The translations under genes were made by a program, and so were the position numbers. A stretch of DNA of 41,171 bases from Lentisphaerota bacterium (GTDB lineage Bacteria; Verrucomicrobiota; Lentisphaeria; Victivallales; Victivallaceae). Shown in pieces: positions 1 to 737 of the stretch. The stretch is taken from positions 1 through 41,171 of the forward strand of contig SUWA01000015.1 in NCBI GenBank assembly GCA_015061695.1, in the 5' to 3' direction. Position 1 is the stretch's first letter; each line of letters starts with the position of its first letter. The notes beneath the pieces were generated by a model that did no database searches, was not told the DNA's origin, and was given only the letters and a program-made list of their open reading frames with translations.

Positions 1-733
1 GTGCTGTATAAAAACAAACAACGAAATGAAACAATAACGTAATATACTTGTTATAAATGAGTTAAATATAAATAAGCAAAGGATTTTTATAAAATAACCT
101 GTCCTCCGCAGCCTTGGCGAAGGAGGAAGCGAGAAAACTTCATCCGTCTTCATCTGCTCCGCAGATTACGCCGTGACAAGCAAGTGGAGCGTAAGCGAAA
201 CGTCTTCACAAGCGACCAAAGGGAGCGACTTCATCCACCTTCGCACAAGGCTACGGTGGACAAGCAAGCAAGGCTTCTGGAATTTGGTGAAGAAGTCCCG
301 TCTTCATCTGTGCTGCAGATTACGCCGTGGCAAGGAAGAAAAGGATGCGCCTTTTTGAGTGAAGTTGTGCCTGACGGCACAGTGAAGTGAAGACTTGCTT
401 GTCGCGGCGTAGCCCGTAAGGGCGTAGACGAACGTCTTCGTTCGCCATTTTTTTGACAAAAAAAATGGCAATGCCGCCGTGTAAGCGAAGCGCAGTAAAA
501 AAACTACACCATCCTTACTCGCAATAGCGAGAAAACTTCACGGGCAGCGTAAGCTGACCTCTTCACAAGTGAAATGGAGCGATAGCGGAATGAAACGACT
601 TCACAAGTAAGTCTTCTCTGCGGCTTGGTGAAGATGTGAAGAAAACCTTCGGTTTTGAGTGAAGAGCTTTTGTTGACACAAAAGCGTGAAGAGAAGACTT
701 ACGTCTTCGTTCGCCATTTTTTGGCAAAAAAAA
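1..733. repeat. Gene-free, repeat- and hairpin-rich spacer next to tRNA-Ser
   Basis: No convincing protein gene is present; the short open frames here are composed of the repeats themselves. Recurrent words are GTGAAG, CTTCACAAG and GTCTTCGTTCGCC. Three related segments stand out. First, 147-185 resembles 299-337 (shared core CAGATTACGCCGTG). Second, 185-211 resembles 574-607 (TGGAGCG...CTTCACAAG). Third, 334-469 is matched by a shorter copy at 636-737. Several segments are perfect inverted repeats. The right arm of the last hairpin is the encoded CCA end of the tRNA. The role is unknown; a repetitive extragenic element family or tRNA trailer is possible. Confidence 0.8.
334..469. repeat. Composite hairpin element, copy A
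   Basis: The order is a flank GGAAG; hairpin 1 AAAAGG(339-344)/CCTTTT(350-355); the flank GAGTGAAG; hairpin 2 TGTGCC(366-371), loop TGAC, GGCACA(376-381); the flank GTGAAG; a GAAGAC(389-394)/GTCTTC(434-439) stem with a 39-nt insert; and hairpin 4 GCCATTTTTTT(444-454), GAC, A8-TGGC(458-469). The same order recurs at 636-737 with different arm sequences in hairpins 1 and 2. Confidence 0.7.
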
Positions 734-737
734 TGGC
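636..737. repeat. Composite hairpin element, copy B
   Basis: Same architecture as 334-469 with changed arms: GTGAAG flank; AAAACC(642-647), TTC, GGTTTT(651-656); GAGTGAAG; GCTTTTGT(666-673), loop TGAC, ACAAAAGC(678-685); GTGAAG; GAAGAC(693-698), TTAC, GTCTTC(703-708); then GCCATTTTTT(713-722), GGC, A8-TGGC(726-737). The terminal TGGC is the complement of the tRNA-Ser discriminator and CCA. On the tRNA transcript a U8 run follows CCA directly, so this arm may also act as the tRNA terminator. Confidence 0.7.

Follow-up and report, generated by a model that had tools for sequence, protein, structure and literature searches.

The window analysed here, 41,171 nucleotides of contig SUWA01000015.1, belongs to the draft genome (G000; 2.65 Mb) of a member of the Victivallales, class Lentisphaeria. 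Near its start lie two copies of a hairpin-rich element, B and A, arranged in tandem on the minus strand directly 3' of a tRNA-Ser(GCT) gene (Table 1), which are probably two left ends (LEs) from a mobile cassette family whose members insert at tRNA 3' ends. The layout of a copy is four direct CTTCAC motifs with interleaved hairpins, then three inverted motifs with more hairpins, and the direct and inverted motifs are able to pair as a nested, tree-like fold. The predicted fold of the region is strong on either strand, 7 to 9.6 standard deviations below shuffled sequences, and an Rfam scan of the window returned tRNAs as the sole matches, with no known structured-RNA covariance model. Copy B is 91% identical over 251 nt to a stretch in a related genome (G019:C49; G, C and L numbers denote genomes, contigs and loci) and 85% identical to another (G033:C220).

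Table 1. Features of the two element copies and their anchor gene in the window
Feature	Position	Strand	Description
tRNA-Ser(GCT), anchor gene	734..823	-	ARAGORN and Rfam RF00005; its 3'-terminal CGCCA (734-738) supplies an arm of the first stem
Stem H0, copy B	712..738	-	CGCCATTT..AAATGGCG; tRNA CGCCA-T-run pairs with element A-run-TGGCG
Hairpin H1, copy B	693..708	-	GAAGAC-GTAA-GTCTTC; from sequence and consensus fold
Left motif array, copy B	628..691	-	CTTCAC at 686-691, 659-664, 636-641 and 628-633, hairpins interleaved; plus-strand reading GTGAAG (659-664, 686-691)
Array hairpin, copy B	666-685	-	Arms GCTTTTGT/ACAAAAGC; from sequence
Array hairpin, copy B	642-656	-	Arms AAAACC/GGTTTT; from sequence
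Middle segment, copy B	607..619	-	AGAGAAGACTTAC; complementary to H1 loop and 3' arm (690-702), 13/13 inverted repeat
Right half, copy B	518..604	-	Inverted motif GTGAAG (plus-strand CTTCAC at 599-604, 561-566 and 536-541) and hairpin 518-531
Copy B, whole	473..738	-	Cassette LE that lacks promoter, IVP gene and right end and continues into copy A
H0, copy A	444..469	-	GCCATTT..AAATGGC; GCCATTTTTTTT is the repeated core at the B/A junction
H1, copy A	389..439	-	GAAGAC..GTCTTC with inserted palindromic REP-like module; insertion also at the orthologous G001 site
Hairpin, copy A	366..381	-	TGTGCC-TGAC-GGCACA; from sequence
Hairpin, copy A	339..355	-	AAAAGG-..-CCTTTT; from sequence
Copy A, whole	100..469	-	Older, decayed LE with several REP-like palindromic modules; left boundary approximate
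IVP, intervening-sequence protein; REP, repetitive extragenic palindromic.

An earlier note on this DNA had described two copies of a hairpin element in a fixed order, and both are found where it placed them. It had also recorded a 39-nt insertion in copy A; the insertion is there, but its size was misjudged, the GAAGAC..GTCTTC segment measuring 51 nt in A and 16 nt in B, a difference of 35 nt. The extra DNA in this middle segment consists of a palindromic REP-like module, of which the genome holds further copies. Modules of this kind (CTTGTCRCGGCGTA-hairpin-GAAGACGG) are inserted in the elements (window positions 107-336 and 395-433; L039-L045) and also occur outside them. An overlap of GTGAAGTCGT with the end of 16S rRNA was judged to be chance. 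Beyond what had been described, each copy is bigger, the element is anchored at a tRNA gene, and the hairpins represent no more than one end, the left, of a larger cassette.

Related elements in G000 also lie behind tRNA-Ser(TGA), tRNA-Pro(CGG) and tRNA-His; genome-wide counts in G000 rest on searches and fetched stretches, all genomes compared are drafts, and the copies are related, so that counts are not independent. A DNA search located the element in 14 of 61 relatives. The covariance-model search that had been proposed as a check, run with the left half, retrieved further copies in this genome and in relatives (matches in 50 of the class's 198 genomes, spread over two families and 13 of 86 genera, with at most 17 copies per genome), which bears out the earlier suggestion of a repetitive, perhaps mobile element. 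A scan of the 330 nt upstream of 80 distinct copies found a tRNA gene in 56 cases (Ser 27, His 9, Val 6, Gln 5, Pro 3, Ala 3, Phe 2 and Arg 1), with H0 mostly beginning at the CCA of that gene; many of the remaining copies stand behind a stray, orphan tRNA 3' end. The elements are located 3' of tRNA genes, leaving the tRNA intact, and not within 23S rRNA. The arm of H0 tracks the tRNA: CGCCA/TGGCG for Ser, CACCA/TGGTG for Val, GACCA/TGGTC for Pro, TGCCA/TGGCA for Arg and CCACCA/TGGTGG for Ala. Viral contigs gave two pattern matches, both in unrelated coding sequence, and no description of these elements was found in the open-access literature. Synteny around purE in named relatives was tried as a guide and dropped, the tRNA-Ser neighbour not being conserved there.

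Other noncoding units of about 140 to 240 nt lie behind tRNA genes in G000 (contigs C18, Thr; C25, Pro; C42, Lys; C68 and C103, Asn; C69, Leu; C127, Arg). They end in a 13- to 19-nt copy of the tRNA 3' end plus CCA and form up to three tandem repeats; in several, the tRNA end is part of a palindrome at the start of the unit. A module starting TTTTTTTGCTTCATATCGCGGCGCC is common to the 3' sides of tRNA-Gly, Thr, Cys, Glu and Asn (C5, C18, C47, C57, C68, C91 and C103), and many contigs end within regions that hold it. Behind tRNA-Val(TAC), a small open reading frame (ORF) for a GIY-YIG endonuclease sits between repeats (L036, G000:C105), and C-terminal scraps of a GIY-YIG gene follow several Val-type elements (L202, L210 and L211).

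The hairpins covary across copies: as the earlier note had it, pairing is kept while the arms change, and covariation among homologues, looked for as it proposed, is found. Motif arrays parsed in the 80 copies contain 27 distinct sequences of hairpin A and 24 of hairpin B. Over the distinct hairpins, with a third, rarer hairpin included, there are 344 Watson-Crick pairs, one G-U pair and four A-C pairs; 15 other mismatches derive mostly from three nested hairpins parsed as a single stem. Over relatives, complementarity between H1 and the middle segment exceeded that of 1996 out of 2000 permutation shuffles, and is not present in every copy. G-U pairs are normally tolerated in an RNA under selection, and their near-absence points to selection at the DNA level or to mutational correction of palindromes. 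Where the earlier note left open a selected RNA or DNA structure, the evidence favours selection on DNA rather than RNA.

This pairing pattern bears on two rival explanations. The element could be a structured RNA, a co-transcribed 3' trailer acting in tRNA processing or in regulation, comparable to the rtT RNA behind tyrT of E. coli, where tandem repeats behind a tRNA gene contain its 3' end. The constant position and orientation 3' of tRNAs, the strong predicted fold and the capacity of H0 to pair with the tRNA 3' end are all compatible with such a role. However, the hairpins are nearly devoid of G-U pairs, and pairing in H0 would open the acceptor stem. Most tRNAs and most genomes lack the element, it is not the same at orthologous sites, and it is also met in arrays that do not adjoin a tRNA gene. 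While the tyrT repeats share the position and the included tRNA end, the present elements lack an Rfam match, occur at many tRNAs, are mobile and give no sign of RNA-level selection. An RNA trailer is quite improbable. Alternatively, the palindromes might be functionless, their arms being kept complementary in a decaying repeat by template-switching correction of quasipalindromes. Such a process would yield perfect Watson-Crick palindromes without wobble and replace whole arms, as seen here, and two tRNA-Asn paralogues in G000 show a T/A to C/G change on both arm sides. It would not account for the order and spacing of the motifs and the inverted arrangement of the right half being conserved across bacterial families, nor for a motif that switches in all copies of an element together, in step with the IVP subfamily, and we consider it unlikely.

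In relatives (G013, G019, G134, G159, G164, G168 and others) a promoter-like stretch and then a PF05635 gene come after the LE. The product is a 117-aa four-helix protein of the 23S rRNA intervening-sequence protein family (S23p; here IVP), about 90 to 98% identical across genera (PF05635 E-value 2.9e-27 in the relatives' cassettes; TIGR02436; PDB 2rld). Behind the IVP gene come one to four small ORFs, often encoding lipoproteins or exported proteins, then a right end (RE) of about 110 nt that is 84 to 96% identical and has a sharp 5' boundary, and finally a copy of the tRNA end. Arrays of such units stand behind tRNA-Ser in G168:C28 and G134:C162. In the source genome, G000:C85 carries a unit complete in outline, comprising tRNA-Ser(TGA), LE, a divergent or weak IVP-like ORF, a lipoprotein gene, RE and TTCTTCCGCCA, which is the last 11 nt of tRNA-Ser(TGA) itself; the duplicated end in G134:C162 is also about 11 nt. 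The window, by comparison, now holds gene-less LEs only, with no promoter and no cassette gene. The far-side copy of the tRNA end is not seen in full there, B meeting A at GCCATTTTTTTT, and the window copies, having lost promoter and genes, are probably passive targets now.

Three left-end types exist, with the motifs CTTCAC, GCTTCAT and AACATCGTTT plus their inverses, and each precedes its own IVP subfamily, the second being 67 to 78% and the third 56% identical to the first. The motif differs in all copies within one element together (CTTCAC versus GCTTCAT). In the third type, found behind tRNA-Thr(GGT) at L415 (G192:C155), AACATCGTTT/AAACGATGTT lie between the hairpins, followed by the IVP gene. 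IVP genes at least 88% identical lie nearly all 200 to 350 nt behind an LE. This correspondence of motif type and subfamily suggests that IVP probably recognises the inter-hairpin motif. Of 30 loci with other PF05635 genes, 17 have the gene between a tandem array of short units and its inverse, where permutation of the 3' flanks gives an expectation of 2.8; the unit, mostly of 7 bp, differs from locus to locus, and its recognition by the protein would be the simplest reading. Such genes lie in other Victivallales (L348-L366) and on cyanobacterial and Riemerella plasmids (plasmid loci L422, L423, L425, L428-L430 and L435). Some of the array-flanked genes sit inside cas operons (L423, L425 and L435). 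The intervening sequence (IVS) of Coxiella has tandem heptamers (GACAGAT) upstream of its S23p ORF (PMC4990558), and PF05635 resembles Avd, an accessory protein of diversity-generating retroelements (PMC10053308). We tentatively propose, as an idea that may well prove wrong, that a widespread class of mini mobile elements, flanked by direct and inverted arrays of a short, element-specific unit, has IVP/S23p proteins, relatives of the retrohoming factor Avd, as its recognition proteins. The Victivallales tRNA cassettes would then be an elaborated branch with palindrome-spaced units and a tRNA-matched end, and the 23S rRNA IVSs, perhaps also the cyanobacterial heptanucleotide repeats, would belong to the same class.

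Orthologous sites differ in content. Among sister species, G000 and G002 have a CTTCAC-type end behind tRNA-Ser(TGA), and G003 and G004 a GCTTCAT-type end, the lipoprotein and RE being common to G000 and G004. At tRNA-Ser(GCT) beside purE, G000 and G001 carry the element, and G003 and G004 carry other DNA. At tRNA-Pro(CGG), G000 and G013 have an LE left half and G033 does not. Two genera share about 140 noncoding nt without a difference (G000 C85 and G013 C3).

Ordinary tyrosine-integrase islands typically duplicate the tRNA 3' end and accrete in tandem, so the element could be an attachment-site arm of such islands, or a derivative resembling a miniature inverted-repeat transposable element that is mobilised in trans. 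At tRNA-Pro(CGG) in G000 and G013, the left half of an LE indeed lies directly in front of an integrase remnant, an N-terminus with DUF6538. However, an intact copy of the same integrase stands at tRNA-Pro(CGG) in G033 without any LE, so that the two are separable and the DUF6538 integrase is ruled out as owner of the element, and no intact element combining LE, integrase and RE was found. An origin from such islands is possible, if doubtful. Movement by a Y1 (TnpA) transposase, as for REP elements with RAYT proteins, has in its favour palindromes beside a short conserved motif in direct and inverted orientation, as in bacterial interspersed mosaic elements (BIMEs). Insertion here is tied to tRNA 3' ends, though, and no Y1 transposase was found in the element-bearing G000, G002, G006 and G013 (drafts, 85-96% complete), which makes this origin highly improbable.

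The observed tRNA anchor, defined ends, duplicated tRNA end, arrays and differing contents at orthologous sites are best accounted for if B and A are two tandem LEs of a mobile cassette family, with a probability, mechanism included, that we put at about 0.7. A full cassette would run from the tRNA 3' end through the H0 palindrome, an array of perfect hairpins with a short motif first direct and then inverted, a promoter, the IVP (S23p, PF05635) gene, genes for one to four small, often exported proteins and the RE of about 110 nt to the duplicated tRNA 3' end. Entry of new units would take place beside the tRNA and leave its end intact, so that arrays grow. Because the tRNA end is duplicated, integration may proceed by site-specific recombination at the CCA-T-run, with the palindrome acting as folded DNA; IVP would bind the inter-hairpin motif and mark or pair the ends, and the recombinase would be encoded outside the cassette. 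Several points weigh against this account. No mobilisation was seen, and the cassettes read encode no recombinase, of the tyrosine type or any other. IVP is missing from some cassettes, and the window contains none of the cassette genes. In several other arrays just 6 nt of the tRNA end plus the T-run are duplicated, and H0 of His, Phe and Gln copies lacks CCA pairing, the T-run alone being paired. The match of motif and IVP rests on three types, the third known from one locus, and all genomes are drafts whose contigs break at arrays.

The cassettes resemble several known systems in part. In the Methylophilaceae island fGI-2, the last 20 nt of tRNA-Lys are repeated before islands (PMC10872708). 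Additive flexible genomic islands and tycheposons share the cassette-like accretion at a tRNA gene (PMC10872708), whereas the present units are small and combine a tRNA-matched hairpin-array left end, a conserved right end and an IVP gene with many tRNA identities. The 23S rRNA IVSs of Coxiella and Leptospira that carry an S23p/IVP ORF are likewise selfish elements at a stable-RNA gene with the same protein family (PMC4990558), but they lie inside the rRNA and are cut out by RNase III, while the present cassettes stand behind tRNA genes and have palindrome arrays and cargo. Integron cassettes (attC) are also tandem gene cassettes bounded by recombination sites of sequence-variable structure; the present ones differ in having their own promoter, a tRNA 3' end as anchor and, in those read, no IntI (no integrase was seen in the array regions read, and IntI was not searched for genome-wide). 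REP/BIME sequences with RAYT share palindromes with a short motif in direct and inverted orientation, but the present elements are tRNA-specific and several genomes bearing them have no Y1 transposase.

These results link PF05635, an orphan family that owes its name solely to its 23S rRNA location, with defined DNA ends and a candidate partner motif, and describe small gene cassettes that dock at tRNA 3' ends. They may also explain the frequent breaks of draft genomes at tRNA genes in these gut bacteria.
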